Shown here in pieces: positions 30,579 to 53,745 of a stretch of DNA of 64,000 nt. This stretch comes from Agrobacterium rosae. Its GTDB lineage: Bacteria; Pseudomonadota; Alphaproteobacteria; Rhizobiales; Rhizobiaceae. The position numbers and the translations under genes were made by a program. Position 1 is the first letter of the stretch, and each line of letters starts with the position of its first letter. The DNA is taken from assembly GCF_002915175.1 (NCBI RefSeq), contig NZ_NXEJ01000008.1, positions 655,096 through 719,095 on the forward strand, in the 5' to 3' direction. Under the pieces are notes generated by a model that was not told where the DNA came from, did no database searches, and saw nothing but the letters and a program-made list of their open reading frames with translations.

Positions 30579-30779
30579 AGGAAGAGGCCTGCCAACGCAG
30601 GTCTTCTTTGTCGATATTCGACGCTTTGGCCACGGCTTTTCGGAATCTCGATAAAAATACGATTCATTGGCGTGTTCGAAACACACATGCCGATGAATCG
30701 CGCCAATCACCGATTGCGAACAGCCAAAGTTTCCGGCAATCATTATGTAAAGTTTTACGCTCTGGAGTTTCGCATCATC

Positions 30780-31214
30780 ATGAAAAAGTCACCCAACTCA
30801 ATCGATATACATGTGGGCTCCCGTATTCGCCTGCGTCGCGTCATGCTGGGCCTGAGCCAGGAAAAACTGGGCGACGGGCTTGGGATCACATTCCAGCAGG
30901 TCCAGAAGTACGAGAAGGGCACAAATCGCGTCGGTGCCAGCCGCTTGCAGCACATCTCGGAACTGCTGGATGTTCACATTTCCTATTTCTTTGAAGGCGT
31001 TCCCGACGCAGGAAACGACAGAACAGTGGCTGTGCCAAGTGCACTGTCCCAGTTCCTGAATTCGAAAGAGGGCATATCGTTAGCAAAGGCGTTTTCAGCC
31101 ATCAAGGACGTTCGCGTTCGCCGTCGCGTTCTTGAACTCGTCCAGTCACTGGGCGGCAATGCCGAGACGGACGCTCCCAAAACCACAGAAATCTTCGCAA
31201 CCCCAGTGAACTAA
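30780..31214 (+). CDS. XRE-family helix-turn-helix regulator
   Basis: A 144-residue protein with an N-terminal HTH_3 domain: GSRIRLRRVMLGLSQEKLGD, GITFQQVQKYEKGTNRVGAS and LQHISELLDVHISYFFEG, the usual rhizobial XRE type. The C-terminal part (about residues 75-144) is a helical extension with SLAKAFSAIKDVRVRRRVLELVQSL, likely for dimer contact. ATG 30780 is used, as upstream residues are not HTH-like. The SARP-like gene starts five bases after its stop, so the two regulators are probably cotranscribed and may control the YcaO/TfuA genes that follow. Confidence 0.85.
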   Translation: MKKSPNSIDIHVGSRIRLRRVMLGLSQEKLGDGLGITFQQVQKYEKGTNRVGASRLQHISELLDVHISYFFEGVPDAGNDRTVAVPSALSQFLNSKEGISLAKAFSAIKDVRVRRRVLELVQSLGGNAETDAPKTTEIFATPVN

Positions 31215-31219
31215 CCGAC

Positions 31220-33013
31220 ATGGTTTTTCGATTGGCCACGTTAGGCCGTTGCAATCTGGAAGATGAGAGCGGAAACGTACTAAACGTTTCCACCCAGGCT
31301 TTGCTCATCTGTGCCTATCTCTTTGATATTGGCAGACCGGTTGCACGACGTGATGTGGCCAATCTTCTATGGCCCGGCAACGGCGAGGCGGCACTGACAA
31401 ATCTACGCTCGACGTTGCGACGCTTTGCACTCGCGACGAAGAATGCCCCTGCCCCTTTGATCATTGCCGACACCAACGCCTTGTCGCTGAACCGGCAAAT
31501 GGTGGCCTGCGACCTTGACTTCATGACAATATCCGAGCCGCAGGAGCGCCTTCACGCAGCCTGTGCTGCGGTCGCCATGCAATTTCTCCCGTCTGTTGGC
31601 GAAGGAAAGACAGCGCTCGACATATGGGTCAGGGATGTTCGACTGCGGCTTTTGAGTACGCTTCGATCGCTGTTCATGGATATTTCCGGCTCTCCAGCAT
31701 CGCGGTCCCAGGCGCATGCAGACCTGAAACGCGCCGCAGTCCTTCTGCTTGAAGCGAACCCCCAAGATCACGATGTCAGACAGCAACTGTCGTCGGGGCT
31801 TGGCGCGCAGACAATAGCGGCAATGCCACGCCTACCAGCGGTGAGGGAACAAAGCGCTGCAAACCAGGCTGCGCAGCCCCGTATCGCTCTCCTTCCCCCT
31901 CACACGTCTAAAGAGGCCAGCCGGGATGGATCGATTGCAAACGCATTGATAGAAGATTTGACGATTGGGCTTTGCAGCAGCCATCTGGTTTCGGTCGTCG
32001 CACCCTACACGTCAGAGCGTATACAGGCATCGAAAGACAAGGCCGCCGTGCTCGAAAAGCACAATGTCGTTTATGCGCTCGACAGCAGGCGAAACGACAA
32101 CCACCTGTTCTTCCAGTTGATTTTTACACCGACTGAGGAAATCATCTGGGCAGAACGTTTCGAATTATCTCCCTTTTCGATCGCATCGCATCGAGAAACT
32201 ATCGCGCTGGCAATCCAGCGCGAATTGATGTCCAGAATAGGTTTGCATCAGGGAGCGGTCGGCGATTTTTCGCGCAGGCCAGAGGCTTACTTCCTCTATC
32301 TCAAGGGTCTGCAAACCCTTTCGAGCGTCAGTCTGCCCTCGATCCGGCGTGCCCGAAAATACTTCAAGGAAGCGCTGGAGCATGGAAATGACCTGCCAGA
32401 AGCGCTTGCGGCCATGTCGCGCACACTCACCATGGAGTGGTTGGTGACGGCGAGGTGCGATGATGAACTCCTCGCGAAAGCGCAGTATTTTGCCGACTGC
32501 GCTATCAAGGAAAACGGTGAGTTTGCCAGCGGCTTCAAGGAGCTTGGGGTGAGCCGCCTTTTCATGGGCAATATTGATGAAAGCCTAGCCGCGCTGTCGC
32601 AGGCTGAAAGCCTCAGCCCGCAATATGCCGATGTACTGGCCAGTCATGCTGACAGTCTGATTCATGCCAGCGATCCCGCCAGTGCTATTATCAAGATCAA
32701 ACATGCAATCGCTCTCAATCCCATATCACCGGATATCTATTTCTGGACGGCAGCAGGTGCCAGCTACTTTTTAGAGGAGTACGATCAGGCGCTGGCTTAT
32801 ATCGGCAAGATGAGCAACAAGCGCGCAGCGTCCCGGCTTGCTGCGGCCTCTTGCGGCATGCTGGGAGAGGTTGACAAGGCTCGCGCTTTTCGTGCAAAAG
32901 TCTTTGAAGACAACCCCAATTTTGATTTGGAGCGTTGGCTGGCTGTCATTCCCCACAAGGAGCAATGGCAGACCGAAATGTATCGAGACGGCCTCAAACG
33001 GGCCGGATTTTAG
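31220..33013 (+). CDS. SARP/CadC-like regulator with TPR repeats
   Basis: A 597-residue regulator. Residues about 5-95 form an OmpR-type winged helix as in SARP proteins (LGRCNLEDESGNVLNVSTQALLICAYL is split by the first strand; RPVARRDVANLLWPG and NLRSTLRRF follow). A middle part (about 215-340: PRIALLPPHTSKEA, ALIEDLTIGLCSSHLVSVVA) resembles the TolB-like domain of CadC/adenylate-cyclase regulators. The C-terminal 250 residues are TPR-like helices (EALAAMSRTLTMEW, FKELGVSRLFMGN, DVLASHADSLIHA). No membrane helix is seen. Such proteins often activate a neighbouring cluster; the 74-residue gene starts 12 bases after the stop. Confidence 0.8.
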   Translation: MVFRLATLGRCNLEDESGNVLNVSTQALLICAYLFDIGRPVARRDVANLLWPGNGEAALTNLRSTLRRFALATKNAPAPLIIADTNALSLNRQMVACDLDFMTISEPQERLHAACAAVAMQFLPSVGEGKTALDIWVRDVRLRLLSTLRSLFMDISGSPASRSQAHADLKRAAVLLLEANPQDHDVRQQLSSGLGAQTIAAMPRLPAVREQSAANQAAQPRIALLPPHTSKEASRDGSIANALIEDLTIGLCSSHLVSVVAPYTSERIQASKDKAAVLEKHNVVYALDSRRNDNHLFFQLIFTPTEEIIWAERFELSPFSIASHRETIALAIQRELMSRIGLHQGAVGDFSRRPEAYFLYLKGLQTLSSVSLPSIRRARKYFKEALEHGNDLPEALAAMSRTLTMEWLVTARCDDELLAKAQYFADCAIKENGEFASGFKELGVSRLFMGNIDESLAALSQAESLSPQYADVLASHADSLIHASDPASAIIKIKHAIALNPISPDIYFWTAAGASYFLEEYDQALAYIGKMSNKRAASRLAAASCGMLGEVDKARAFRAKVFEDNPNFDLERWLAVIPHKEQWQTEMYRDGLKRAGF

Positions 33014-33025
33014 GCAGGGGATACC

Positions 33026-33250
33026 ATGGCACAAGCAGTTATTCTGGGGATCGAGGGTGAAGAGGGCCTTTGGCTGGTCGATCTTCAATCGGGTACGATA
33101 ACAGCCGTCAAAGAGCCTTTGACCGGGGAACTGGCAAAGGCAGCGTCCCTGCGTGCATCGGGTGTTGCGATAACCAAGGGTGTCGATTTCGCAATCTCGG
33201 CATCCGCCGAGACCTTCGGAGCAGGCGGCATTCACGAAGGCAATGGCTGA
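33026..33250 (+). CDS. 74-residue Cys-free protein, candidate RiPP precursor or partner
   Basis: A small acidic protein preceded by a strong AGGGG ribosome site. It starts MAQAVILGIEGEEGLWLVD and ends SASAETFGAGGIHEGNG, with Gly, Ser and Thr concentrated in the tail. No cysteine is present, so thiazoles are excluded; Ser/Thr or backbone changes remain possible. The N-terminal half looks like short beta strands rather than a plain leader. It is tightly linked to the YcaO gene (TTG start two bases after its stop), which argues for joint function. It could be a substrate or an accessory recognition protein; the sequence does not decide. Confidence 0.68.
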   Translation: MAQAVILGIEGEEGLWLVDLQSGTITAVKEPLTGELAKAASLRASGVAITKGVDFAISASAETFGAGGIHEGNG

Positions 33251-33252
33251 TC

Positions 33253-34431
33253 TTGCAGCTCGATAATTATCGCGCATGTTCTGCAGGCGAAACCTTGGAA
33301 AGGGTTTCGCCTTTTCTTCGTCGACTCGGTATCACCAGACTTGGTCGGCAGACGGATCTCGATGATATCGGTATTCCCGTCTGGTGCGCATTTGCCCCGA
33401 ATGCAAAAGTAATCGTTATCGCCCAAGGTAAGGGCATGGATGACGAGGCCGCGAAAACATCGGCTGCGATGGAGGCAATCGAGCGATCGGTGGCGACAAA
33501 TCCGGCTTGCCAGTTGCTCGTTACGAGCCAGCAGACGCTGGAAACTTCTGGACATTCCTCGAACACCCTCGACAGCCTGCTCTCGCCGCGCGCAAAGCCG
33601 GTGTCACAAACCGAAGACATTAATTGGGCACGCGCCAAGCATCTGTTGACGGGTCATGAGATATGGGTGCCTTTCGATGCCGTGCATCTCGACCGAACCG
33701 TGACATCGCCACGATACTGGCAATCGTCCGATGGCCTCGCCTCCGGTAATACGCGTGACGAAGCCGTGCTTCACGGTTTGCTGGAACGGGTGGAGCGTGA
33801 CGCGCTGACGCTGTGGCAGGTCACGCCGGCAACCAAGCGATACGGGTCATCCGTCGACACGAATGCGATTGCGGAACCAACACTGCGGACCGCTCTGGAC
33901 AAAATCGCGCGTGCAGGTCTGGATATCGTCCTGTTCGACATTACGACGGATTTGCGGATACCGTGCATTGTAGCGTTGATGGGTCCCAAAAACCGAACAA
34001 ACACCCGCTCCATCCGCCATGTCGACATCACTCACGGCGCTGGTGCCTCCACTTCACCGGCCATTGCAGCAATAAGAGCCATTACAGAGGCCGCCCAGTC
34101 CCGGATGACGTTCATCGCCGGTGCAAGAGACGACCTGCTACCAGATATTTTTTCCCAGCACGCAGATCCGATGACAGTCGCGGCGCTGGATGCTTGCGCA
34201 TGCAAAAAGCTGACCGACCTCCCCGCTCTGAGCGCAAAATCCACCGAGCACTCTCTTCAGCTGGTTCTGGAGCAACTTCACAATTGCGATATCCAAGAAC
34301 TCTACGCCGTTGATCTCGCGCCCGAATGGTTGCCCGCCAGTGTCGTTAAAGTCATAGCACCTCAGCTTGAAAATCCGGATGGAGAACGACACCGGCGCTT
34401 AGGCAGCCGTGCTCTTTCGAAGGCTTTATGA
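33253..34431 (+). CDS. YcaO-domain cyclodehydratase/thioamidation-type protein
   Basis: A protein of about 392 residues. The YcaO ATP-binding fingerprint is seen as KTSAAMEAIERSVA (SxxxEAIER) and GLLERVERDALTLW (ExxERD); the opening SAGETLERVSPFLRRLGITR and HGAGASTSPAIAAIRAITEAAQSR are family hallmarks. It phosphorylates a peptide backbone amide with ATP to drive heterocycle, thioamide or amidine formation. The C-terminus lacks the PxPxP tail of azoline-forming YcaOs. TTG 33253 is the likely start, in frame with no closer ATG, and directly follows the small gene. The stop overlaps tfuA-like ATG (ATGA). Confidence 0.88.
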   Translation: MQLDNYRACSAGETLERVSPFLRRLGITRLGRQTDLDDIGIPVWCAFAPNAKVIVIAQGKGMDDEAAKTSAAMEAIERSVATNPACQLLVTSQQTLETSGHSSNTLDSLLSPRAKPVSQTEDINWARAKHLLTGHEIWVPFDAVHLDRTVTSPRYWQSSDGLASGNTRDEAVLHGLLERVERDALTLWQVTPATKRYGSSVDTNAIAEPTLRTALDKIARAGLDIVLFDITTDLRIPCIVALMGPKNRTNTRSIRHVDITHGAGASTSPAIAAIRAITEAAQSRMTFIAGARDDLLPDIFSQHADPMTVAALDACACKKLTDLPALSAKSTEHSLQLVLEQLHNCDIQELYAVDLAPEWLPASVVKVIAPQLENPDGERHRRLGSRALSKAL

Positions 34432-35120
34432 TGATCGTTGTTTTCGTGGGACCGAGCTTGCCGAATGCTCATGAGTTCGTGGACGCAAATGTCGAGGTCC
34501 GTCCACCCGCCTGCCAAGGCGATGTCATGCAGGCGATTGCGGATGGAGCACTCAAAATCGGATTGATCGACGGACAGTTCGAAATGGCGGCACCCGTCTG
34601 GCACAAGGAGTTGTTGTTTGCTTTATCAAAGAACATTTCGGTGTTCGGAGCCGCCAGCATGGGCGCATTACGGGCAGTGGAATGCGCCGCCTATGGCATG
34701 ATCGGCATCGGTAAAATATTCGAGGACTATGTTTCGGGTATACGCGTGGACGATGCCGATGTTGCCTTGACCTATGGCCCTGCGGAACTCGGATATCCGC
34801 CCTTGAGTATTCCACTGGTCAATGCTCAGGCGACGATCGCCAAAATATCCAATCTCGGATTGCTGAACCAACCATGTTGCGAAAAACTCGCTTATGCAGC
34901 GCAGACACTTTTCTTCAAGCGACGAACATGGAAGACGATCGCCCAATTGGCTGGCGTTGACGTCGAAACCCTCAAGCCGGTTCTAGACCTTTGCTGGGTG
35001 GACCGGAAAAAGCTGGATGCCATCGCGTTGCTTCAGGCGATGGAGCAAAATCTGCAGCCGGTGAAAGCCGAAGATTGGCAATTCAACGCAACCACACTGT
35101 TTCGGAAAATGTACCTTTAG
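34428..35120 (+). CDS. TfuA-like protein (YcaO partner)
   Basis: A 230-residue protein with the TfuA core: IVVFVGPSLPNAHE, RPPACQGDVMQAIADGA, IGLIDGQFEMAAPVWHKELL and VFGAASMGALRAVEC, then GIGKIFEDYVSG and DDADVALTYGP. TfuA was named from the trifolitoxin system of Rhizobium leguminosarum; in other YcaO systems it is thought to enable thioamide formation by delivering sulfur. Start overlaps the YcaO stop by four bases, so the two are coupled. The C-terminal 60 residues (RRTWKTIAQLAGVDVETLKP) form a helical tail. Confidence 0.9.
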   Translation: MMIVVFVGPSLPNAHEFVDANVEVRPPACQGDVMQAIADGALKIGLIDGQFEMAAPVWHKELLFALSKNISVFGAASMGALRAVECAAYGMIGIGKIFEDYVSGIRVDDADVALTYGPAELGYPPLSIPLVNAQATIAKISNLGLLNQPCCEKLAYAAQTLFFKRRTWKTIAQLAGVDVETLKPVLDLCWVDRKKLDAIALLQAMEQNLQPVKAEDWQFNATTLFRKMYL

Positions 35121-35247
35121 TTTTCGCATAAGGTGAAATCGCAACATTAAAAATCAATCCCTGCGTGTGCAACGATTTTGCAACGCGCTTAACGCGCGAT
35201 CTTCGCGTAAAACGAATCCATCGCAACAGACATACGATGAGATTCTG

Positions 35248-35484
35248 ATGACATTATCTAGAACTGACGCCGAGATCGATGAACGCCAGGAAGACTTTCT
35301 CACACTCATCAATATGCTGACCTACGCAGAAGGCGTTGCAGAAACGTTGGGTGCGCCATCGGCTAGCTGGTACATCGACGTCGCAAAACAAGCGCTCCAG
35401 TCCGCTTTACAGAACGAGATGGACGTGGAATTTTCAAATGCCGACATCGTAAACCTCGCATCGGTCCGCGCAGGCCATTGCTGA
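35248..35484 (+). CDS. 78-residue small protein downstream of tfuA-like gene
   Basis: Begins MTLSRTDAEIDERQEDFLTL and ends NLASVRAGHC, with one cysteine as the last residue. It is mostly helical and acidic (residues 10-70), with LGAPSASWYIDVAKQALQSA in the middle. The ATG at 35248 was chosen because the coherent sequence starts there; the ORF can extend upstream to 35167. It lies 127 bases after tfuA with a hairpin terminator after it, so it may be the last gene of the group. I do not recognise the family; a second candidate substrate is possible because of the Cys-terminal tail. Confidence 0.55.
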   Translation: MTLSRTDAEIDERQEDFLTLINMLTYAEGVAETLGAPSASWYIDVAKQALQSALQNEMDVEFSNADIVNLASVRAGHC

Positions 35485-35513
35485 GCTTACAGCCTGCATT
35501 CAACGAATCTCCT

Positions 35514-35549
35514 ACGCCAGGACAAGGATTTTCATTCCGGTTCTGGCGT
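35514..35549 (+). terminator. Terminator at end of the YcaO/TfuA group
   Basis: ACGCCAG (35514-35520) pairs with CTGGCGT (35543-35549), with a partly paired loop, followed by TTCTTT. Lies 30 bases past the small-gene stop, before the convergent hydrolase gene. Confidence 0.55.
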
Positions 35550-35600: not shown

Positions 35601-37430
35601 CTATTGCAGGGGCGGAAATTGTTTCGCAATTGCTCTGACTTCATCAGCCCACGCGTGGCGCGCTTCCGCCGTAGTCAAGTTGTGATCGGCGTTTGCGATA
35701 TAGACGATCCGAGGACTTCCATATCGGCTGCTTAACAACCGCCCACGCGGACCGAAATTGGTCTCCAGCATGGCTGCCCCAACATCACCATCCGTATAGA
35801 CGATCGACATACGTGTGTCGTTGGCAACAATGGCTTTGAAATCTTGGGAAAGCGTATGAAAACGCTGAGATAGGAACGGGAAGCGCACCATAATCGGCGT
35901 TGTGAACGAAACCGCTTTTGCCGCAATCATCGCCCACATATTGACGATACCGTTTCTGATACGCACATCGCCACGCAGCACCCTGCGCCAGAAACCACCA
36001 CAGAAAAGTTTCGCCCCATAGCTTGCCAGTGGCTGCCGGGAGGAAACCAACAGAGCTTCGACATCGGCATCGGCAGGAATATAGAAATCGAACACGTTGA
36101 CGGGCACGACACCACTGAAACGCTTGTCCTTCACCCCGCCCTTGAAAGCCGCCCAGCCGCCACTGCACCGGCCCGTGACAACGACCGGGAAAAGCTGTCT
36201 TTCTTCCAGAAAATCCATAGCGACACTGATATCTGCAAGCTGTCCGTCGCCATAAATGATCTGGTTCCTTTGATCAGGAACCGGCGGACTATCCGCAATA
36301 TTGGCCATGTCGAAGCGCAAGCTGGCGATGCCGGAGCGTGCCAGATCTCTGCACAGCTTAACCGATATGCGCCCCCAGCCCGACGCACGCTCGTAACCTG
36401 TCGGCAGCACCAGAACGGTCGCGCCCTTGCGTTGCCCCTTCGGCTCGCACAAAACGCCGTAAAGGCGGCTCTGCTCGCCAAACCGTACCGGCGTTTCCTT
36501 GAAACAATCGCCAACCAGAGTGGCCGATGAAGGAACACGCCATTTGGCCTGAAGGTTTAAAGCAGTCGGAACCTTTTTGGCGAGGCTGCTTGCCCATTCC
36601 GCCAGCGTTTCGATAGCCGCCATTGGCGGCACCGAAAACAGGACGTCACTTATGAACCGGTCATAGTCTTCAAACGTCAGAGCGCGGACATCGACATCAA
36701 GTGTCTTCAAGTGCTCTGCAAATGCCGCATCGGCGGGGCGGTTTTCCTGCTTGAGCAAAAGAATGTTCGGTGCCGGTGCGTTTATTGCGGATGCAATGTT
36801 GAGTGTCCTCAACCCGGCTGTGACCGCTTCAGGTATTACCTGCTCACCCATGGTCGGGCCGGACGTGGAGCTGGCATTCAGGATTGCACCCTGATTGGCA
36901 ATTCGGCTCAACGCGACGAATTCGCGCAACCAGTGGCGACCAGACAAAGCCGGCGCTGCAAGAGCCAGGCCTGAAATGCCTTCCAACGTCTCCGCTACGC
37001 GCCACGCCATCGCGCCACCGATACCATGCCCGATGAGCAGGATCCGGTCCACTCCCGACGATTGTTTCAAAGTCCTTGCGGCTGCATCTATGGTGTCGAG
37101 CCAGATCTTCAAACCGTCGGCATAATCCGGGTGGTCAAGAGCATCCCCGGTTCCAGGATAATCGAAACGCATGCTGGCCATGCCACGTTTCGACAGCTCC
37201 ACGGCAAGCCGTTGCCAAAATTTTCGCGCGCACAGTTCCTCAAAACCCCACGAACCCACAAAAAGAACGGCAGTGTCCGTCGCGAAAGATGCGCCGTCTC
37301 GTTGAGACATATCGGCCAAGGCATCGGCGGGTCGGAAAAGGCCAACCGTATCTGCAAACGTAACGGGGTAATCAGCGGCGATCTGCACGCTCTTTCCCTC
37401 TACGACAGGCAGATTAAAATTGGCATTCAT
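35601..37430 (-). CDS. Tandem alpha/beta-hydrolase protein
   Basis: A 609-residue protein of two alpha/beta-hydrolase-like halves. In the first (about residues 45-285) the elbow is LLIGHGIGGAMAW, with Gly in the nucleophile position. In the second (about 310-600) it is VVTGRCSGGWAAF, with Cys there. Both halves carry the usual strand before the elbow (RILLIGHG; FPVVVTGRC) and a shared sequence about an FDYPGTGD/FDMANIAD step (MRFDYPGTGDALD and LRFDMANIADS). Such proteins occur in polysaccharide or exosortase clusters. Neither half shows a classical Ser elbow. It starts the exopolysaccharide-like cluster, facing the TfuA group. Confidence 0.8.
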   Translation of the reverse strand: MNANFNLPVVEGKSVQIAADYPVTFADTVGLFRPADALADMSQRDGASFATDTAVLFVGSWGFEELCARKFWQRLAVELSKRGMASMRFDYPGTGDALDHPDYADGLKIWLDTIDAAARTLKQSSGVDRILLIGHGIGGAMAWRVAETLEGISGLALAAPALSGRHWLREFVALSRIANQGAILNASSTSGPTMGEQVIPEAVTAGLRTLNIASAINAPAPNILLLKQENRPADAAFAEHLKTLDVDVRALTFEDYDRFISDVLFSVPPMAAIETLAEWASSLAKKVPTALNLQAKWRVPSSATLVGDCFKETPVRFGEQSRLYGVLCEPKGQRKGATVLVLPTGYERASGWGRISVKLCRDLARSGIASLRFDMANIADSPPVPDQRNQIIYGDGQLADISVAMDFLEERQLFPVVVTGRCSGGWAAFKGGVKDKRFSGVVPVNVFDFYIPADADVEALLVSSRQPLASYGAKLFCGGFWRRVLRGDVRIRNGIVNMWAMIAAKAVSFTTPIMVRFPFLSQRFHTLSQDFKAIVANDTRMSIVYTDGDVGAAMLETNFGPRGRLLSSRYGSPRIVYIANADHNLTTAEARHAWADEVRAIAKQFPPLQ

Positions 37431-37535
37431 CTTCCACCCTCCAATGGATGTCTAAAGCATAGAAACGAACAATGGCTCATTCACGTTAAGCAATGCTTGA
37501 TATTCTACTTGTCACAAGCAACCGTTTTTTGGTGC

Positions 37536-38801
37536 TCAGGCATTTATGTGGTTCGAATCGGGAATTTTAACAGCGGTTGCTGCAATCAGAATCTCATTGA
37601 GCTTCTGATAATAGCCTGATGCTTCTGATGTTCCCCGAAAACCATCAATGCCGGGGAAATGCGTATCCCGCTCCAGCCACCAACGGTCATGCCCTATCGA
37701 AAGAGCTCGCTCCAAAATGTCGGTAAGGCCCGTTTCCCGATCTGGATCATAACACCAGCCTGTTCCGAGGTCCCGCAAAATTTCCGGCGTGCCACCCCGT
37801 TCTGTCCCGATAACCGGAACGCCATAGGTGGCGGCCTCCATCAGAATGAGGCTTTGCGGTTCGTGCCAACGCGATGGAACGACGATGACGTCGGCGACTT
37901 TGTAAACGTCTTCCGGCGGCACAAACCCCAGAAAATGAATCGGAGCATCGCCGGCTAACGATTTCAGATGCCGCTCATAGTCTTCCCGCCCACGTCCCGC
38001 CACCAGCAACGTCGACGGCTCGGATTGCGGTAACGTCACAAATGCGCGGATCAGGTCTTCGATGCCCTTTTCTTCCGCCAAAGCTCCAAGATAGCCGAAC
38101 GTAAAACGCTCACTCGTGCTGTTTTTTCGACCCACCAACGGTGCCTGGAAAAGCGCTTCGCTGCGATTGGCGTTCAAAAGCACGTGCCAATCCGCCAGGG
38201 GTAAAACGCCATTGCGTAAAAATCGCTGACGTAGCGCATCGCTGACAGAGATCGCGGTAACCCCATCGCCTTTGCTGGACTTGATACGCGCCGTCAGAAC
38301 GCGGCATTCAAGACACGGCTTTTCGCAATTGCCGGAGCTGCGAAACATGCTCGATTTCGGGCAGAGCAAGGCGTAGTCGTGTAGATGCAGACAGAGCGGT
38401 ATCTTGAGCGCGCTGGTCGCTTCAAATATTGCGGGCTGCATTCTGGCGGAATTATGCGCGTAAACGAGGTCTACCTTCTCGCGCAGCAGCAGTTCTTTGA
38501 CGTCATTAGCCGACGTCGCACCCATCGCGCTGCGAATGTGCCAAGCCAATTTCGCCAGCTTTCCCACGGCCGGTTTGCGTGGGCCTGGCAGATAACTGTT
38601 GTGCCAGTTGATCCGCAAAACACGAATGCCGTCACTGTTGGTCGTTTCACCGGGAGGGGCGATGTGGTCACCTTCCAGACCCAGCGACAGAATGATGACA
38701 TCGTGGTAACGCGAAAGCTCTACCGCGCACATGCGTGCCACGATCTCTGCCCCGCCCTCCTCTTGAGGCGCGAATGTCTGTGCGACAATACAGATCTTCA
38801 T
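37536..38801 (-). CDS. GT4 family glycosyltransferase (paralogue A)
   Basis: A 421-residue GT-B retaining glycosyltransferase. The N-terminus MKICIVAQTFAPQEEGGAE holds the first Rossmann strand and sugar-acceptor loop, and the C-terminal donor site is seen in FGYLGALAEEKGIEDLIRAF and VPSRWHEPQSLILMEAATYG (EX7E-type). A four-Cys insert (CPKSSMFRSSGNCEKPCLEC) may bind metal. It is closely related to the gene at 41381 on the other strand, over its whole length. It should add a sugar to a lipid-linked repeat unit; donor unknown. Confidence 0.85.
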   Translation of the reverse strand: MKICIVAQTFAPQEEGGAEIVARMCAVELSRYHDVIILSLGLEGDHIAPPGETTNSDGIRVLRINWHNSYLPGPRKPAVGKLAKLAWHIRSAMGATSANDVKELLLREKVDLVYAHNSARMQPAIFEATSALKIPLCLHLHDYALLCPKSSMFRSSGNCEKPCLECRVLTARIKSSKGDGVTAISVSDALRQRFLRNGVLPLADWHVLLNANRSEALFQAPLVGRKNSTSERFTFGYLGALAEEKGIEDLIRAFVTLPQSEPSTLLVAGRGREDYERHLKSLAGDAPIHFLGFVPPEDVYKVADVIVVPSRWHEPQSLILMEAATYGVPVIGTERGGTPEILRDLGTGWCYDPDRETGLTDILERALSIGHDRWWLERDTHFPGIDGFRGTSEASGYYQKLNEILIAATAVKIPDSNHINA

Positions 38802-38893
38802 CGGTTTCGCTTTTTCTCCATCACGCATTCCTCGTCCGGCAAAGCCGTGGGAGCTGTTCAGGCCATCTTATTTCAGCAGGAGTAAACATAGCA

Positions 38894-39973
38894 TCAAAGA
38901 CCGTTTACCGCGCGAAGCAGAGCATCAGCGCTTCTATCCCAAGAAAACTTAAGTGCACGCGCATGACCGCGTGCGATCATGGTGGATCGGATGTCTGGAT
39001 TTGCCGCGAGGTGCTCAATGCACCGGACGATATCATGAGCATTGTTTGGATCGAAATAGAGCGCCGCATCGCCACAGACTTCACAGGCCGGCTCTATGTT
39101 TGATGACAGTACCGGACAACCCAGGAACATGGCCTCGAGAGGCGGAATACCAAAGCCTTCATAAAGGCTTGGGAAAAGCAGGGCAGCGGCATTTGCATAA
39201 AGTGCGACAATCTCTTCGTCGGTCAGGCGTCCGGTAAATATGACCTGATCGGCTCCTACGCTGTCGCTTTGGCTTTCCTGCGCATCTTCCTTGAAAACAC
39301 TCGATGCCGCAGCGCCCACCACCACGAAACGCGGAGCATTGTCAGCCATGATGCCAATTGCCTCGACAGCCCGCAGGATATTCTTGTTTGGCGTTGGGGA
39401 GCCGACGAACAGCACATAGGCATTTGATGTCAGATTCAAACGTTGCAACACCGTATCGTCAGGTGTGACGGATGCCATGTGTTCGCAGCTATTGGGAATG
39501 ACCGAGATATTTTTTGCGCCGATCGTCTGCGCCAGTTCCCGTTTGGAAAATTCCGAAACAGTCGCGATATGACCTCGACGCGCGAGCAGATGTCCAAGCG
39601 AGCCGTGCACGAAGCGATAGGCACGCGAGAAGTTCTCCGGCGTGCGAAAAATCATGGCGTCGTGGATGACGGTCAGGCTTTTCCCATGCAGGACCGGTCC
39701 ACTGTTGCAGAGATTGATCAGGCGACCGTGGCGGGACGCTGCAAAAAGTTGGGTCTGTTCCCAGAGATGACCCGAGAGACTGCCGACATGACGCTGTTCG
39801 ATGACAGACAGCTTCATATCCAGCGATGCATCTTTGGGTGCCAGCAAAACCCACTCATCCGTATTGTTTGTCGATGCGAGATGCCGGTCCAATGCTTTGA
39901 CGATTTCCCGCGCAAAACGCTGAACGCCGCTGGTTTTCTGGGTCAGAAACCGTCCGTTGATAAAGTTGGTCAT
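38894..39973 (-). CDS. GT4 family glycosyltransferase
   Basis: A 359-residue GT-B enzyme beginning MTNFINGRFLTQKTSGVQRF (the SGVQRFAREIV loop is typical of mannosyl- or rhamnosyltransferases). Donor site: FVGSPTPNKNILRAVEAI, then LLFPSLYEGFGIPPLEAMFLGCPVLSS with the EGFGIPPLE signature. The start overlaps the stop of the next GT gene (39970-39973, ATGA on the minus strand), so the two are translationally coupled. Confidence 0.87.
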   Translation of the reverse strand: MTNFINGRFLTQKTSGVQRFAREIVKALDRHLASTNNTDEWVLLAPKDASLDMKLSVIEQRHVGSLSGHLWEQTQLFAASRHGRLINLCNSGPVLHGKSLTVIHDAMIFRTPENFSRAYRFVHGSLGHLLARRGHIATVSEFSKRELAQTIGAKNISVIPNSCEHMASVTPDDTVLQRLNLTSNAYVLFVGSPTPNKNILRAVEAIGIMADNAPRFVVVGAAASSVFKEDAQESQSDSVGADQVIFTGRLTDEEIVALYANAAALLFPSLYEGFGIPPLEAMFLGCPVLSSNIEPACEVCGDAALYFDPNNAHDIVRCIEHLAANPDIRSTMIARGHARALKFSWDRSADALLRAVNGL

Positions 39974-41076
39974 GCGAACCTGCGGCTTTCAGCAGACCAG
40001 TTGTCCACAATGTGATGATAAAGCTGCATGAGTTCTTCGTTCGTCCGCTCGCTTCTGTAGCGCTGCATGAAACGCTCATAGCCAGCCGCGCCCATTTGCG
40101 CCCAGCCCTCGGAACTGCGTGACGCAATGGCCGCAGCAAGCGCCTTATGATCACCCGGGGGAAAAAGAACACCGGTTTTACCGTCACTCACCACCGATTG
40201 CAGACCTCCGACCGCCGAGGCGATGACGGGTTTGCGTGAACGCATCGCCTCGAGTGCCACAAGTCCGAAACCTTCCCACCGCGATGGCATCGCAACGACG
40301 TCGCAAACGGCCATATGGCCAGCAATATCCTCGGCCGATCGCCATCCCAGCAATTCGACATTGGCTGGCAACGTCTGCGTCAGATCATTCTTTGTCGTGA
40401 CATGCGCTCCGATGACGCGAAACACCGCCTTGTCCTTCAGTTCCGCTGCCGCTTGCAAGAGAATATCGACGCCCTTTTGCCGGTCCAGCCGTCCGACGAA
40501 CAGCACTTTTGTGCGCGTGTCGAGCCATTCGGTCGGCGTAGCCACCGGAAGCTGTGACGATATTCCGTTTTCGATGACGATCATCCGCTCGGCTGAAATC
40601 CCTGCTTTCAGGCCCTGCTCATATTCGTAACCCGATATTGCGACGATCTTGTCTGCAAGCGGGGAAAGAATACGCTCGGCCCACCGGGCAGGATGACGCA
40701 AGGGGCCAAGCGTCTCCATGTCGAACACCCATCCGTGCGGGCAATAGACGACAGGCGGAAATTTGCCCGGCATCGCTCTAATTGTGCGAACGATACCTCC
40801 TGCAAGGGTGGAATGTGCGTGAACGACATCGGGCCGAAATGATCTTACCTCGTGCAGCACGGCACGCGCCAATGCTGGGAGCGCAGTGGATCGTTTCCGT
40901 CTCACGAAAGTCGCGATAGAAGAAGCCGGGGTATTTTTCAGAAAGCCTATATGGGCATCGGGTACGATAACCCTGATATTTTCAGCGCCCAGAGCCTTGA
41001 TTTGGCTTGGGACTATTTCGTTGAAATAGGTCGCTGGCCCGCCAGGCATAGTCTCAAAAACGTGCAGAATCTTCAT
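39970..41076 (-). CDS. GT4 family glycosyltransferase
   Basis: A 368-residue GT-B enzyme. It starts MKILHVFETMPGGPATYFNE, a common exopolysaccharide GT opening; the middle has VVYCPHGWVFDMETLGPL; the donor side has LFVGRLDRQKGVDILLQAA and VAMPSRWEGFGLVALEAMRSRKP (EGFGLVALE). Met at 41076 was chosen, as the longer frame gives a non-conserved head. Its end overlaps the next gene downstream, which suggests a common sugar chain. Donor unknown. Confidence 0.86.
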   Translation of the reverse strand: MKILHVFETMPGGPATYFNEIVPSQIKALGAENIRVIVPDAHIGFLKNTPASSIATFVRRKRSTALPALARAVLHEVRSFRPDVVHAHSTLAGGIVRTIRAMPGKFPPVVYCPHGWVFDMETLGPLRHPARWAERILSPLADKIVAISGYEYEQGLKAGISAERMIVIENGISSQLPVATPTEWLDTRTKVLFVGRLDRQKGVDILLQAAAELKDKAVFRVIGAHVTTKNDLTQTLPANVELLGWRSAEDIAGHMAVCDVVAMPSRWEGFGLVALEAMRSRKPVIASAVGGLQSVVSDGKTGVLFPPGDHKALAAAIASRSSEGWAQMGAAGYERFMQRYRSERTNEELMQLYHHIVDNWSAESRRFA

Positions 41077-41380
41077 GATCCACCTCATCCACGGCATTGG
41101 ATCGATGACGACCTGCCCTTTCACGGAAACTTAAATCGCAAATTTCTTAATCAAGACAGAATATTGAAATGAAAAAGAGGGAATGCTCCATTTGACTTGA
41201 TCATATTGTGCGCTATGCAACTTGAAAACGCCACTCAGCCTGTTGCACTACTCATTTTATTTTGATGCCTCTGTTAAAGACTGCGTATTTCAGCGACGCA
41301 GCGTTCAATATATTTAAATGGTTCTGAAGTCATAACTACGCGTAAAGATAAGAACACTACGCGGATAGAGGTAAGCGGAT
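41077..41380. other. AT-rich divergent promoter region between two GT operons
   Basis: 304 bases without a gene. The divergent starts at 41076 (minus) and 41381 (plus) mean both promoters lie here. The region is clearly more AT-rich than its flanks, with TTAAATCGCAAATTTCTTAA, a possible TTGACT near 41193 and a TGCGT/ACGCA hairpin near 41280-41303. No conserved operator is recognised. Confidence 0.5.
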
Positions 41381-42616
41381 TTGAAAATCTGCATCGTATC
41401 GCAAACTTTCGCTCCACAAGAGGAGGGCGGCGCGGAAATTTCCGCTCGCCTGGGCGCAATGGAGCTTGGCCAGCGTCACGATATCACCGTGCTGGCATTG
41501 GGCAAAGAGGGCGATGCCATCGCACCGCCAGGTGAAACCCGGTTGCAAGGCTGCATTCGTGTGGTTCGCCTTCCCTGGAACAACAGCTATCTACCCCTGC
41601 CTCGTAAATCATCCGCCGGTTTTTTACACCGGGCAAGCTGGCATCTGCGCACCGCCATGGGAGCCCTTTGTCCGGAACAGCTCACAAAATTTCTGGTCAC
41701 GGAAAAGTTCGATCTCATCTATGCTCAGAACTCGGCCTATATGCAGCCAGCCCTCTTTATTGCTGCCCGCAGGGCAAATATCCCCATCTGCCTGCATTTG
41801 AGAGATTATGGACTGCTCTGTCCCAAGACCAGCATGTTTCGCAATGGCGATAATTGTGAGCGTCCGTGTTTCGACTGCTCGCTTTTGACGCGGCGGATGC
41901 GTGAGATGAGAGGCGAAGGCATGACGGTCATCGCTGTCAGCGACGCTCTGCGGCAACGGTTCGTCACCAACGGCGTCTTGGAAGATGCCGACTGGCACGT
42001 GATGCACAACACAAATGCCACCGAAAATATCTATGATAGATCTCTCGTCGGCAGACGGAACACGACAGCACCGGTGTTCACCTTCGGCTATCTCGGCGCG
42101 GTGTCCCAAGAGAAGGGCGTGGACGACCTGATCCGTGCCTTCATGTCACTGCCAGACCGCGACAATGCAAAACTTATTCTCGCCGGACGAGGCCGTGACA
42201 GCGACATCGCAAAACTAAAGCGACTGTCTCAAGGTGCGCCGATCGAATTTAAAGGTTTCGTCAGACCGGAAGAAATCTACCGCGTGGCCGATGCGATCAT
42301 CGTGCCGTCCAGATGGCACGAACCGCAGAGCCGCATTCTGGTCGAAGCGCCCGTCTATGGCATTCCCGTCATCGGCACGATGCGTGGCGGCACCACGGAA
42401 ATCATACGAGAACACCAGACTGGCTGGTATTATGATCCAGACAAGCCAGAAGCGCTGTCGGAACTCTTGGCAAAAGCTCTGGCGATTGGCCAGAAACGCT
42501 GGTGGGAAAAGCGCGACGAGATTTTCCCGGGTCTTGCGAGCTTCAAAGGAACTGCCGAACAATCCGGTTACTACGGTCATTTAGAGAATATATTACTGGC
42601 CGCAGCGAGGCGCTGA
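41381..42616 (+). CDS. GT4 family glycosyltransferase (paralogue B)
   Basis: A 411-residue GT-B enzyme. MKICIVSQTFAPQEEGGAEI matches the start of the gene at 37536-38801, as do ALRQRFVTNGVLEDADWHV and VPSRWHEPQSRILVEAPVYG. It carries the same four-Cys insert (CPKTSMFRNGDNCERPCFDC). The start is TTG behind AGAGGTAAG. It lies on the plus strand alone, between a divergent GT operon and a convergent TupA-like gene. Duplication with inversion is inferred from the similarity. It likely adds the same or a similar sugar. Confidence 0.85.
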   Translation: MKICIVSQTFAPQEEGGAEISARLGAMELGQRHDITVLALGKEGDAIAPPGETRLQGCIRVVRLPWNNSYLPLPRKSSAGFLHRASWHLRTAMGALCPEQLTKFLVTEKFDLIYAQNSAYMQPALFIAARRANIPICLHLRDYGLLCPKTSMFRNGDNCERPCFDCSLLTRRMREMRGEGMTVIAVSDALRQRFVTNGVLEDADWHVMHNTNATENIYDRSLVGRRNTTAPVFTFGYLGAVSQEKGVDDLIRAFMSLPDRDNAKLILAGRGRDSDIAKLKRLSQGAPIEFKGFVRPEEIYRVADAIIVPSRWHEPQSRILVEAPVYGIPVIGTMRGGTTEIIREHQTGWYYDPDKPEALSELLAKALAIGQKRWWEKRDEIFPGLASFKGTAEQSGYYGHLENILLAAARR

Positions 42617-42640
42617 AACCGCCTCGATTGACCCTTCAAA

Positions 42641-43555
42641 TTACAGCGAACCGGTCAGAAAATGGCCTTTGGGCTGGTCTTTCCAAAATGTTCCCAGCCA
42701 TGCGTCGGTTGATGGCGGCCTGAAGGCACCAAAGCCGGAGGTCGGGCTGAACGTCATTTCCCCAAACAAGGGTCCGGACGGCCTGTCATAGAAATCGATG
42801 CGAACGAACTCGAAGCCCTGTGCCAATGTACGAGCGGCTGCCAGAATCTCATCGAGATGCGGCGGGCGCGCTAGGTCCCCTGTCTCAAGCGGATAATAAT
42901 GCCCGAAATCGAGCTTGTTCCAATGCTCGTCATAAAAGCAGCGTCGGTGGTCGCTAAAGCGCGCCGTGTCGATCTGGATGCAGGGAACATCGTTTTCAAA
43001 GCAAAAGAACTTGTAGTCTACCGGTGCCTCTCCACCCTCCCCGATAAACGGTTCAATGAAGATTTCCGGATCGATGTGATTGTACCACTCTTCCGCCAAC
43101 CGCCATGCGGTTCGCCCGTTGAGCCAGACATCACATTTCTCCTTTGCGCCAACCAGATCCTCCGGTCCGTAGACGAAGATATTGCGATCTGACCCGTGAT
43201 TGACTTTGATGACATAAGGAAACGGCAGTGGTGGGCAATCGTCAAGGTTTTTGCCCCGCCACAGCGTTGGCGTCACCCATCGTTCCCCTAGAACCTCCGC
43301 GACATGCGCCTTTACCGCAATCTTGTCGCTAAGCAGGATCAGGCGCGGATCGGACTGCGGACCTGTCCAGGCGATCTTGCGGGCGGCGAGATGCTCGTTC
43401 AATGTTTTGGGGTTATCCAGATCGGCCCATAATTTGTGATAGCGATAATACTGCAATTGCGTTGCCTGCTTGATCGGCAGGCTCTGAATGGCTGCATGGT
43501 ACAGCTTTTTGAAAATGCGGCGTCCTAATGAATGCCGGGGCTGGTCCGATGCCAT
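42641..43555 (-). CDS. TupA-like ATP-grasp protein
   Basis: A 304-residue protein resembling the TupA-like ATP-grasp family found in polysaccharide clusters. It shows YYRYHKLWADLDNPKTLNEHL, PYVIKVNHGSDRNI, the ATP-grasp strand EIFIEPFIGEGGEAPVDYKF, FFCFENDVP and RIDFYDRPSGPLFGEMTFSP, the last carrying the metal-binding Glu region. Members are thought to make an amide or ester bond on a sugar or peptide, for example adding an amino acid to a polymer. Substrate here unknown. Confidence 0.8.
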   Translation of the reverse strand: MASDQPRHSLGRRIFKKLYHAAIQSLPIKQATQLQYYRYHKLWADLDNPKTLNEHLAARKIAWTGPQSDPRLILLSDKIAVKAHVAEVLGERWVTPTLWRGKNLDDCPPLPFPYVIKVNHGSDRNIFVYGPEDLVGAKEKCDVWLNGRTAWRLAEEWYNHIDPEIFIEPFIGEGGEAPVDYKFFCFENDVPCIQIDTARFSDHRRCFYDEHWNKLDFGHYYPLETGDLARPPHLDEILAAARTLAQGFEFVRIDFYDRPSGPLFGEMTFSPTSGFGAFRPPSTDAWLGTFWKDQPKGHFLTGSL

Positions 43556-43607
43556 GGGTTCAATCGCCTTCTAAAACGAATTTGGGATATTCAGCTTACT
43601 GCCGTTC

Positions 43608-44900
43608 CTATGATCGTGATGCTCGCCAAAGCAACGTGCTCGATATCGTCGCCGTAACAAGCGCCGTGAAAAACGCGGACAGACCGGCACCGATAAAACC
43701 AAAGCTACTGATCAACAGGAAACTCATACCGATCGACAGGAGAACGCTGGATAGATTGACGAATGCATAGTGTCCGTCTTTCCGCAGGCTGTTGAGCCCC
43801 AGACCCATGAGATCCGTGCAGGAGCGGACGACGGCCGTCAGAAGCAACAGCGCGAAAATACCTTGATGCTGGCCGAGTTCAGGCATGTTCATGAGATGCA
43901 CGAGAATATTGCCGCTGATGAAAATCGCCACACCCAATCCGAAAGCAACGGCAGCGGTTTTGGTAAACTGCCAGATCATTACTTCCCGCCACTCTTTCAT
44001 GGAGCCGGTATTGTAAGCTTTGAAAAGAGCGGGAATGGCGACCTGTAAAACTGCGGTCGCTATCAATGTCTGCAACGCATTGGCAAGCGACCAATAGAAC
44101 GTGTAGACGCCGGTGAGCGAAAGCGTGAGAAGCAGCGACACGATATAGCGATCCGCATAAACCAATCCGACATTGCTTATATCGCTGATATAGATCAGCC
44201 ATGCCTTTCGCATGCGTTTTCTCACCCACCGCATCCGCATGGGGGCCTGCAAAATCCGTCTGAAAGGCCATTGCCGTAGAAAGCTGGCAAGCGCGCCAAA
44301 CATAAGAATATACCCAAGGCTCCACGCGATCATGATCGTTTCGATGTTGCGGAAAACCTCTGAGATCAACCCCAAACCGATGACGGGTAGAATCCATGAT
44401 GAGGTTCTTAGAAAGAACAGCACATTGGCCTGGCTCGACATTTCCTGTGCAATGAGCGGCACATGAATATCGCAGGAAATCGTCTCTAGCCAAACGACCA
44501 GAAGGATAAGGAAGTAAAGCGGTACCACCGCATGACCCATAAAGTGGGCTAGGATCAAACCTATTGCGGTCATCGCGGCAAGCGACGTGACAGTCACCAG
44601 CAGTCGCGTCTTTATGTACACACCGGCGACGCCGGATGTTTTTCCGCTGACGTCTCTTGCTATGAAGTAATTCAGGCCCCAGCCGAGAGCTGCCGGAGCA
44701 GCATTCACCACACCCAGCGCAAGACCATAGATGCCGGCGGCTTCGAGGCCCATGAATTTGACAATATAAAAAGACAGCGCAAAGCGCAAAACAAGCGTCG
44801 AACCGCGAAGGCCCATATTGAAGATGACGTTGATACCGGTAAGAGAACGACCTTGCAGAAACGGTATACGCATGGCTGTCCGGTTGTTGTTTTCAGCCAA
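43608..44900 (-). CDS. Wzx-type oligosaccharide flippase
   Basis: A 430-residue, about 12-helix protein of the polysaccharide-transporter (MATE/MVF-like) group. Helices include LRFALSFYIVKFMGLEAAGIYGL at the start, TVTSLAAMTAIGLILAHF, and LTAVVRSCTDLMGLGL. It should flip lipid-linked repeat units. Its family opening (GINVIFNMGLRGSTLVLRF) fits O-antigen/EPS translocases. It lies 9 bases downstream of the Wzz-like gene on the same strand, so they are probably one operon. Confidence 0.83.
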   Translation of the reverse strand: MAENNNRTAMRIPFLQGRSLTGINVIFNMGLRGSTLVLRFALSFYIVKFMGLEAAGIYGLALGVVNAAPAALGWGLNYFIARDVSGKTSGVAGVYIKTRLLVTVTSLAAMTAIGLILAHFMGHAVVPLYFLILLVVWLETISCDIHVPLIAQEMSSQANVLFFLRTSSWILPVIGLGLISEVFRNIETIMIAWSLGYILMFGALASFLRQWPFRRILQAPMRMRWVRKRMRKAWLIYISDISNVGLVYADRYIVSLLLTLSLTGVYTFYWSLANALQTLIATAVLQVAIPALFKAYNTGSMKEWREVMIWQFTKTAAVAFGLGVAIFISGNILVHLMNMPELGQHQGIFALLLLTAVVRSCTDLMGLGLNSLRKDGHYAFVNLSSVLLSIGMSFLLISSFGFIGAGLSAFFTALVTATISSTLLWRASRS

Positions 44901-44909
44901 TGTCGATCC

Positions 44910-51325: not shown

Positions 51326-52540
51326 ATGACCCAAAGCGCCGATCTGAAATCTGCTGAGAAGGCACCCGATCTTACGGAGCTTATCCTACAGCATTCGGCC
51401 GCGCTGTCTGCGCAACTGCAAGCGCACAACGCAAATACATTCGCACCTCTGTCCGAAAAAAGCATGAGGAATTTTTCTCCATCCGAAACGGCTAAGCTGA
51501 TCGGCATTGGAGAAGCATATCTCCGCCAGATCGCCGCCGAACAACCGGAGCTCAGCGCTTCGCAGAGTGGCGGTCGCCGAAGCTATTCCGTTGAGGATAT
51601 CCACGAGATCCGCAAGTTCCTCGATCAGGGCGCGCGCGGTACTCGCCGCTACCTTCCTCATCGTCGTGAAGGCGAAGACTTGCAGGTCATCGCCGTGATG
51701 AACTTCAAGGGCGGCTCCGGCAAGACCACAACATCGGCGCATCTAGCGCAATTTCTCGCACTGCGTGGCTATCGTGTTCTTGCAATCGATCTTGACCCGC
51801 AGGCAAGTCTGTCTGCCCTCTTCGGACATCAACCGGAGCTAGATGTCGGACCCAACGAAACTCTATACGGTGCGATCCGCTATGACGGCGAACAACGCCC
51901 CATCGCCGAGATCGTTCGCGGAACCTATATTCCCGATCTCCACATTATTCCCGGCAATCTGGAACTGATGGAGTTCGAACATGATACCCCACGCGCGCTG
52001 ATGCGCCGTGCGCCAGGAGACACGCTGTTTTTCGCCCGCATTGGTCAAGCTATCGCGCAGGCGCAAAACTTTTATGACGTCGTGGTTATCGATTGCCCCC
52101 CGCAACTCGGTTACCTCACACTATCGGCCCTGACGGCGGCGACATCGGTTCTTGTTACCGTTCATCCACAAATGCTCGACGTCATGTCGATGAACCAGTT
52201 CCTTGCCATGACCGGTGACCTTCTCGCTGAAATCGGCAGGGCTGGTGCTCGGTCGGATTATCACTGGATGCGGTACCTGGTCACACGCTTCGAGCCGAGT
52301 GATGGTCCACAGAACCAGATGGTGGCTTTCCTTCGCTCCATATTCGGAGAGCATGTGTTGAACCATCCCATGCTAAAGACCACCGCGGTGTCCGACGCCG
52401 GATTGACCAATCAAACGCTTTTCGAGGTGGAACGGACGCAGTTCACGAGAGCGACTTATGATCGCGCGTTGGAATCCATGACGAATGTTAATGCCGAAAT
52501 TGAAGGCTTGATTAAGAAAGCCTGGGGTAGGGCCGTATGA
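51326..52540 (+). CDS. repA: Plasmid partition ATPase RepA (ParA family)
   Basis: A 404-residue ParA-type ATPase of repABC. An N-terminal HTH region (about 60-110: TAKLIGIGEAYLRQIAAEQP) binds the rep promoter; the Walker A deviant is MNFKGGSGKTTTSAHLAQFL and the second motif is VLAIDLDPQASLSALFG, with VVIDCPPQLG as motif 3. RepA represses the operon with RepB and moves the replicon copies apart. Overlaps repB by four bases. Length is typical. Confidence 0.97.
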   Translation: MTQSADLKSAEKAPDLTELILQHSAALSAQLQAHNANTFAPLSEKSMRNFSPSETAKLIGIGEAYLRQIAAEQPELSASQSGGRRSYSVEDIHEIRKFLDQGARGTRRYLPHRREGEDLQVIAVMNFKGGSGKTTTSAHLAQFLALRGYRVLAIDLDPQASLSALFGHQPELDVGPNETLYGAIRYDGEQRPIAEIVRGTYIPDLHIIPGNLELMEFEHDTPRALMRRAPGDTLFFARIGQAIAQAQNFYDVVVIDCPPQLGYLTLSALTAATSVLVTVHPQMLDVMSMNQFLAMTGDLLAEIGRAGARSDYHWMRYLVTRFEPSDGPQNQMVAFLRSIFGEHVLNHPMLKTTAVSDAGLTNQTLFEVERTQFTRATYDRALESMTNVNAEIEGLIKKAWGRAV

Positions 52541-53550: not shown

Positions 53551-53599
53551 TCAACCCGTTTTCGATTGAACCATTAACAGGAGCAGCAAGCCCAAAAGA

Positions 53600-53680
53600 A
53601 AAAAGCCCCCGAACGTTGCCGCACGGAAGCCTTTCTTTGATCTAAGCACCCAAAGAATCTCATTTCCGCGAATCATAGTC
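53600..53680 (-). ncRNA. Counter-transcribed RNA (ctRNA/incA) of repABC
   Basis: The 195-base gap between repB and repC holds the conserved terminator-like hairpin of repABC ctRNAs: on the minus strand GCTTCCG...CGGGGGC followed by CTTTTTT, at about 53601-53630. The RNA would be transcribed toward repB and silence repC. The 5' end is approximate; about 50 bases of leader fit known ctRNAs. It is an incompatibility and copy-control element. Confidence 0.75.
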
Positions 53681-53745
53681 AATAGTCTTGGCATCGATAT
53701 TTCTTCGGTGAGCGATTTTCTTTTGCCTTTTTGAAGGTGAAAGAC

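Follow-up and report, generated by a model that had tools for sequence, protein, structure and literature searches.

A probable RiPP-type module with a TfuA-associated YcaO in Agrobacterium rosae and related rhizobia

Gene content of the locus

The stretch of DNA analyzed here comprises 64,000 nucleotides of Agrobacterium rosae (contig NZ_NXEJ01000008.1, positions 655,096 to 719,095; referred to below as the window), and it contains a compact module of six genes on the forward strand between positions 30780 and 35484. These encode an XRE regulator, a SARP-like regulator with a TPR region, a 74-residue protein (p74), a YcaO enzyme, a TfuA protein, and a 78-residue protein (p78). The module is probably of the type that makes ribosomally synthesized and post-translationally modified peptides (RiPPs), with p74 as the precursor, YcaO and TfuA modifying the peptide backbone of its core, and the SARP-like protein controlling p78. 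The features of the locus are as follows.

30780-31214, + strand: XRE (HTH_3) regulator, which opens the module; ATG start; Pfam HTH_3 E 2.9e-12
31220-33013, + strand: SARP-like regulator with a weak N-terminal winged-helix region and a C-terminal TPR region; 5-base gap after XRE
33026-33250, + strand: p74, proposed precursor, 74 residues, no Cys; 12-base gap after the TPR regulator
Within p74: leader, approximately residues 1-57, and core, within residues 58-74 (..ETFGAGGIHEGNG), as placed by family alignments and codon and pN/pS tests
33253-34431, + strand: YcaO enzyme; TTG start; 2-base gap after p74; PF02624 E 5.7e-66
34428-35120, + strand: TfuA; 4-base overlap with YcaO; PF07812 E 4.7e-38
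35168-35185, + strand: proposed operator, TGCAACG-4 nt-TGCAACG, a conserved repeat upstream of p78
35248-35484, + strand: p78, small partner protein, 78 residues, C-terminal GHC; 127-base gap after TfuA
35514-35549, + strand: hairpin after p78, a probable transcription terminator; 10-nt arms, 90% complementary, 16-nt loop, then TTCTTT

The gene order, the gaps of 12 bases or less, the four-base overlap, and the hairpin had all been described in an initial annotation of the window and are present in the sequence, as are its Cys-free 74-residue and Cys-ended 78-residue proteins, both of which are coding-like by codon positions. The open frame of XRE extends upstream to a GTG at 30672, and the TTG start of YcaO occurs at the same place in 5 of the 7 relatives inspected. 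No ABC exporter or protease is encoded in the module, as had also been noted. Ahead of XRE and p78, a sigma-70-type scan gave no promoter-like site, and the hairpin was not called by a simple terminator scan, which allows loops of 3 to 8 only.

YcaO and TfuA resemble an archaeal thioamidation pair

The YcaO domain and the overlapping TfuA partner gene both score over their Pfam cut-offs, as expected of a TfuA-associated YcaO. The best solved match of the YcaO is MJ1094 (6pe3, E 1.7e-58), ahead of azoline-forming enzymes (TruD, 3.7e-25), and the closest solved chain to TfuA, which has one match only in the source genome, is 6xp8 (E 2.8e-26). The McrA thioamidation families of NCBIfam rank first for both enzymes, with scores below the equivalog cut-offs. 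Three motifs, MEA.ER, EA..HG..ER.ERDA, and RA.TE..QSR, are conserved in the YcaO (aligned with MJ1094 and kept in A2, the YcaO alignment used for the scan described below), and we take these to be its ATP-binding segments. The accessible text of a genome survey of RiPP clusters mentions three ATP-binding motifs of YcaO (PMC8120280). The C-terminus of the protein (..RRLGSRALSKAL) has no PxPxP tail, as read in the initial annotation. Because the nearest profiles and structures of both YcaO and TfuA are those of the archaeal thioamidation pair, thioamidation would be the likely reaction of the two proteins here, which agrees with the thioamide-type assignment first given to them.

The gene set is retained through rearrangement

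The conservation of the module was followed in a scan of one genome per species (84,980 species) with alignment A2, and counts out of 80 refer to the best 80 of 417 relatives. The nearest loci by YcaO identity are those of Rhizobium skierniewicense (90%) and Agrobacterium rubi (79%), with near-identical records possibly left out. The initial annotation had staked its reading on conservation of the two small open reading frames beside YcaO/TfuA, and both recur. With a leader hidden Markov model (HMM), p74 was found just ahead of YcaO at 70 of the 80 loci, with gaps of up to 330 bases; this share describes the set and should not be extended to such YcaOs at large. Downstream, 78 of the 80 matched a p78 HMM for which the window and 30 of these loci had served as input, those 30 being counted among the 78. 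XRE is present in 76/80 loci (tblastn E<=1e-5), and a SARP-like/TPR gene precedes p74 in all 70 p74-bearing loci. The complete layout XRE>SARP>p74>YcaO>TfuA>p78 is found in 64 loci, with the others arranged as XRE>YcaO>p78 (6), XRE>YcaO>TfuA>p78 (3), XRE>SARP>p74>YcaO>p78 (2), SARP>p74>YcaO>p78 (2), and three singletons.

Where p74 is missing from the YcaO locus (10 genomes), it is always present elsewhere, and the best p74 in each genome has a SARP-like homologue directly before it. Together these split genomes contain 13 p74 genes, 11 of which are preceded by a SARP-like gene; the p74 genes at L197 (genome G630) and L198 (genome G636) precede a second YcaO and have no SARP-like gene in the ~1.5 kb upstream. 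G636, which is also the genome of locus L171, has three p74-type matches at separate places, one of them immediately preceding a YcaO gene. In 9 of the 10 split genomes, p78 remains with YcaO. TfuA shows the same mobility: it is absent from 10 of the 80 loci and present elsewhere in each of those 10 genomes (11/11 including the genome of L171), with a SARP-like gene as its neighbor in 7 and an XRE gene ahead of it in 3. A gene set that is retained despite a shuffled arrangement argues for function better than adjacency alone.

Genomes closer to the source were also surveyed. Within an order-level sample of 297 genomes, p74 matches occurred in 18 at E<=0.01, of which 16 are credible; G199 and G226 were excluded since their matches lie inside frames of 1246 and 659 residues. 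TfuA occurs in 44 of the 297 genomes, including all 16 with credible p74, a co-occurrence with a hypergeometric probability of 3.6e-15 when kinship is ignored and genomes are treated as independent. The order SARP-p74-YcaO-TfuA is intact in 14 of these 16, window included; of the other two, one has contigs that end at the locus (L028, L087), and G023 has SARP-p74 and YcaO-TfuA on different contigs. p78 was found in 14 of the 16 and credibly nowhere else in the sample (15 matches, with one inside a 325-residue frame in G182 dropped). In a genus-level sample of 39 genomes, p74 is present in 14 and TfuA in 35, and in all 14 p74 genomes TfuA lies <=2 kb from p74 on the same strand. A search of 337 genomes of the class with the p74 profile returned the source genome as the sole match.

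p74 has the features of a peptide precursor

p74 is best read, from its sequence behavior, as a RiPP precursor composed of a conserved leader and a faster-evolving C-terminal core. Compared with its nearest relative (L106), the p74 gene has 2, 2, and 21 differences at codon positions 1, 2, and 3, and thus behaves as a coding gene. Family alignments show a conserved N-terminal part (MAx.VVIG..GE.GLWLADL.AGTV..), and the ratio of nonsynonymous to synonymous differences (pN/pS) is 0.23 in residues 2-57 versus 0.48 in residues 58-74 (36 pairs from 9 close relatives). The C-terminus carries G-x-x-[D/E] followed by at most 5 residues in 62 of 71 proteins, S-x-x-[D/E] in 6, and neither in 3. Inspection by eye showed tandem cores at 7 of the 70 named loci (L132, L134, L136, L137, L138, L144, and L163) and in 9 of 15 relatives from the order sample, for example a GGFFEAS-like unit repeated 4 times in L021 and a 14-residue unit present about 6 times in L026, where the DNA has a 42-bp period with 5.5 copies. 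Both the quicker evolution of the core relative to the leader and its tandem arrays in some relatives fit a peptide precursor, and a small open reading frame that recurs beside a modifying enzyme across genomes, with a conserved leader and a faster or repeated core, is what RiPP precursors generally look like.

No secretion signal is visible by eye on p74. Assignment of p74 to a known family was also tried, and Pfam and NCBIfam searches with 62 members gave stray matches only, of 1 to 3 members each, the best being Nucleoporin_FG (E 2.6e-4, one member) and VapC (E 0.0039, three members). The search for a relative of solved structure found none (best E 0.084).

A conserved repeat may link the SARP-like regulator to p78

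Of the two regulators in the initial annotation, XRE was borne out by its HTH_3 match, while the SARP/TPR label found less in Pfam: the TPR matches of the window protein fall below the cut-off, no BTAD domain was called, and across the window protein and 8 relatives the DNA-binding region gave one weak Trans_reg_C match (E 0.0062, below cut-off) in 1 of the 9. The SARP label thus stands without Pfam confirmation, and its indirect support comes from the proposed operator. In a block between TfuA and p78 that is near-invariant in 8 Agrobacterium-type sequences (TGTGCAACGnTTTTGCAACGCGC), the heptamer TGCAACG is repeated at 11 bp. SARP regulators such as PimR recognize heptamer direct repeats with a 4-nt spacer and an 11-bp period, bound by an OmpR-type domain (PMC5930380, accessible text), and AfsR also has a TPR domain (PMC10936776, accessible text). 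The repeat before p78 shares this heptamer-and-4-nt-spacer geometry, but the protein here differs from PimR and AfsR in having no SARP-type Pfam domain call.

Under a pattern defined after the sites had been seen, 77 of 78 loci have, at a distance of 71-148 bases ahead of the p78 match, a repeat of period 11-12 that reads either CAACG..CAACG (type A) or TCACG..TCACG (type B), with L152 being mixed; the pattern also occurs in 34 of 14,385 control windows. In the order sample, the heptamer repeat with 11-bp period follows TfuA in 11 of 13 p74-type loci (L027 is doubtful and L034 has none). It follows TfuA in none of 4 loci of a second type, in which a 142-residue protein stands in place of p74. 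The exact TGCAACG repeat is found once in the source genome at 0 mismatches; at <=3 mismatches the window holds no excess of sites (11 against a shuffle mean of 10.4), and only the exact site stands out. As a separate observation, six loci (L145, L147, L149, L150, L183, and L184) carry another copy of the type-B repeat, on the opposite strand ahead of XRE. A conserved sequence block was also noted upstream of XRE.

When 36 type-A loci were compared with 32 type-B loci, 5 of the first 110 positions of the SARP-like protein separated the two types fully, versus 3 of its other 487, and no position did so in XRE (0/144) or YcaO (0/391). Three of the five N-terminal positions are residues 64, 67, and 73, which by analogy should be within the recognition helix. 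The two repeat types follow residues of the SARP-like protein and not of XRE, which suggests that the SARP-like regulator controls p78, a test weakened by shared descent. On these sequence patterns, the SARP-like protein most likely binds the repeat before p78 and controls that gene. The initial view of the locus as regulated is consistent with XRE, the SARP-like protein, and the conserved repeat.

p78 itself differs at 1/2/8 sites in codon positions 1/2/3 and is coding-like, as is p74. Its C-terminus is Cys in 33 of 78 loci (mostly GHC, also GNC and GRC; L106-L137 and L185) and mostly His in the rest, and family searches with 14 members gave stray matches only. p78 has a control site of its own and resembles a regulated partner more than it does a second substrate; from the Cys end, a role as sulphur carrier can be imagined.

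Proposed mechanism and alternatives

In the mechanism that we favor as probable, YcaO with TfuA would recognize the conserved p74 leader and alter the backbone of the C-terminal core, the most likely change being conversion of one amide to a thioamide, perhaps at the conserved Gly of G-x-x-[D/E]. Cell peptidases would then trim p74, as proposed for the Streptomyces peptide thiovarsolin. The SARP-like/TPR protein would bind the heptamer repeat and activate p78, which may be a regulated partner or an output, and XRE probably controls the main promoter. What the analysis offers is a precursor family, its likely leader/core border, a motif for the core, a partner gene that is conserved, and a regulatory target that is probably the only one, and the product, enzyme site, and regulation are thereby each open to direct test. 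If the mechanism is correct, a widespread thioamide peptide in plant-associated bacteria has been kept despite its scattered genes, pointing to a general role in rhizobial life.

Several observations weigh against this proposal. The enzyme scores are 206 of 365 bits for YcaO (TIGR03266) and 163.8 of 235.2 for TfuA (NF033432), and no transporter or protease is linked to the module. The core Gly is not invariant, with 9 of 71 proteins lacking G-x-x-[D/E], and the window's own p74 has a single core, with no tandem repeat. Alignment A2 comprised 11 YcaO sequences, of which 10 were p74-linked, and two of the genomes whose YcaO locus lacks p74 (G630 and G636) have the extra p74 before another YcaO. 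TfuA without p74 is found in 21 of the 39 genus genomes, and the 5 of these that were inspected have the 142-residue protein in its place. For the operator, allowing 2 mismatches gives 3 sites in the genome versus 2 for the control, the post hoc definition of the pattern applies throughout, and the repeat types follow clades, so that their tracking of regulator residues partly reflects shared descent.

The alternative that survives best, though still unlikely, is that p74 stays whole, with YcaO and TfuA modifying the tail of a small folded protein that then acts in the cell. This is close to the initial annotation, which had preferred a modified small protein over a secreted peptide; the absence of a linked exporter or protease holds in its favor, as does a leader that is perhaps better conserved than recognition alone would need, and protein thioamidation has precedents in McrA (PMC5589413, accessible text) and uL16 (PMC13063428, accessible text). 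The thiovarsolin system, however, likewise has no dedicated protease in the accessible text of its description (PMC6511847). Tandem cores of varying number and the faster evolution of the tail are typical of peptide precursors, and on this point the core behavior fits such a precursor better than the protein first envisaged.

A doubtful possibility is a peptide-signalling circuit, in which the thioamidated p74 core, acting inside the cell or exchanged between cells, would be read by the TPR part of the SARP-like protein and switch p78 on through the repeat. In the RRNPP systems of Gram-positive bacteria, a TPR receptor gene lies directly before a propeptide gene, and the peptide is secreted and re-imported. 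The SARP-like/TPR gene here similarly lies directly before p74 at every p74-bearing locus of the 80, and the signalling reading draws on its presence before 11 of the 13 p74 genes in split genomes and on p78 as the main conserved target; it would differ from RRNPP in having a YcaO-modified peptide and in operating in Gram-negative rhizobia. The p74 genes at L197 and L198, with no SARP-like gene in the upstream ~1.5 kb, count against such a circuit.

An improbable reading makes p78 the true substrate or product and gives p74 an accessory part, in leader binding or regulation. The linkage of p78 is as tight as that of p74, it has its own conserved control site, a Cys end in 33 of 78 loci, and it remains with YcaO in nearly all genomes whose YcaO locus lacks p74, but staying with YcaO would equally suit a helper, and p78 has no repeats, a C-terminus that varies by clade, and no leader/core split by eye. 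Least probable of all is another backbone change on p74, azoline or amidine formation, which many cores with Ser before Gly and the general knowledge that YcaO enzymes perform all three reactions would allow, but against which stand the TfuA partner, the thioamide-type closest homologues, the missing PxPxP tail, the lack of Cys in the window's p74, and the lack of a further enzyme gene in the module.

Relation to known TfuA systems

Judging by its title, a 1996 study by Breil reportedly linked tfuA to trifolitoxin production in Rhizobium, the system in which the gene was named. An antiSMASH/RiPPER survey counted over 500 TfuA-related clusters in Rhizobium and described dominant cluster families in Rhizobium and Agrobacterium (PMC8120280, accessible text), and the present locus probably belongs to one of these families. 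Among these hundreds of rhizobial clusters, the accessible text gives none of this kind with an assigned precursor or product, and a precursor like p74, p78, the operator, and split layouts are all absent from it; in the searchable open-licence literature, as far as its accessible text goes, we found no description of these four either. What is known, then, are the TfuA-related Rhizobium clusters, and apparently new here, against that literature, are the p74 precursor family, the split layouts, the operator, and p78.

One of the closest known systems is that of thiovarsolin from Streptomyces varsoviensis, where the precursor VarA has a leader and a core that is single or imperfectly repeated, and where two thioamidated products were obtained from a fragment carrying varA, varY, and varT alone (PMC6511847, accessible text). 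Both systems have YcaO and TfuA beside a leader/core precursor and no dedicated protease. They differ in core motif, p74 having no APR core as in VarA, and in host phylum, and the module here has no VarO-type heme-oxygenase-like gene; a heme-oxygenase-like gene at 55116-55730 is 20 kb away. Neither p78 nor the operator has a counterpart mentioned in the accessible text on thiovarsolin. For both enzymes, the closest profiles and structures are those of McrA thioamidation by YcaO-TfuA in methanogens (PMC5589413, accessible text, which also covers azoline formation by YcaO enzymes), with the difference that the substrate there is a large enzyme and that the scores here are below the equivalog cut-offs.

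Other precursor candidates at TfuA loci

At least 8 of 38 further TfuA loci in the order sample carry other repeated precursor candidates, located between SARP and YcaO in L085, L091, L092, L093, L095, L097, and L100 and upstream of YcaO in L105. The repeat units at L092, L097, L100, and L105 are AAHILYGADTRS, ASHYYYPSR, ASHIFYGVD, and TQVCGKISPKAVTP, with a 42-bp repeat period at L092, and the leader of the precursor group with ASHYYYPSR/AHILYG repeats matches p74 residues 1-31 (hhalign 96%).

In the 5 inspected of the 21 other Agrobacterium-type genomes, p74 is replaced in an order SARP-[142-residue protein]-YcaO-TfuA (L226:4302-4730 and L227-L230). A common origin of p74 and these 142-residue proteins was considered and is not significant (hhalign probability 0.6%). 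At L230 (G656), the matches to YcaO and to TfuA are both fragmented, as though the genes were broken, and the 142-residue gene is intact. L091, L093, and L095 encode a protein related to the 142-residue one with mid-protein arrays of short repeats, AGVQSQ-like in L093 and L095. In one genus, three genomes (L070, L071, and L073) have a second YcaO-TfuA system with an oppositely oriented XRE gene and a precursor candidate of 47-52 residues that has no repeats and ends in ALKFR/ALRFR.

Genomic surroundings

The next gene after the module, at 35601-37430 on the minus strand, encodes an alpha/beta hydrolase, which was rejected as a maturation enzyme since a match is present at only 4 of the 80 loci. 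It has a below-cut-off resemblance to exosortase-associated hydrolases and lies within a region of glycosyltransferase and polysaccharide genes (35601-46988). A repABC-type set at 51326-55020 encodes a RepA-like protein (ParA-type ATPase), a RepB-like protein, and RepC (PF03428/PF11800) on this 889-kb contig, which, given that set and apparent housekeeping genes in the first 30 kb of the window (1-30 kb), may be a chromid.

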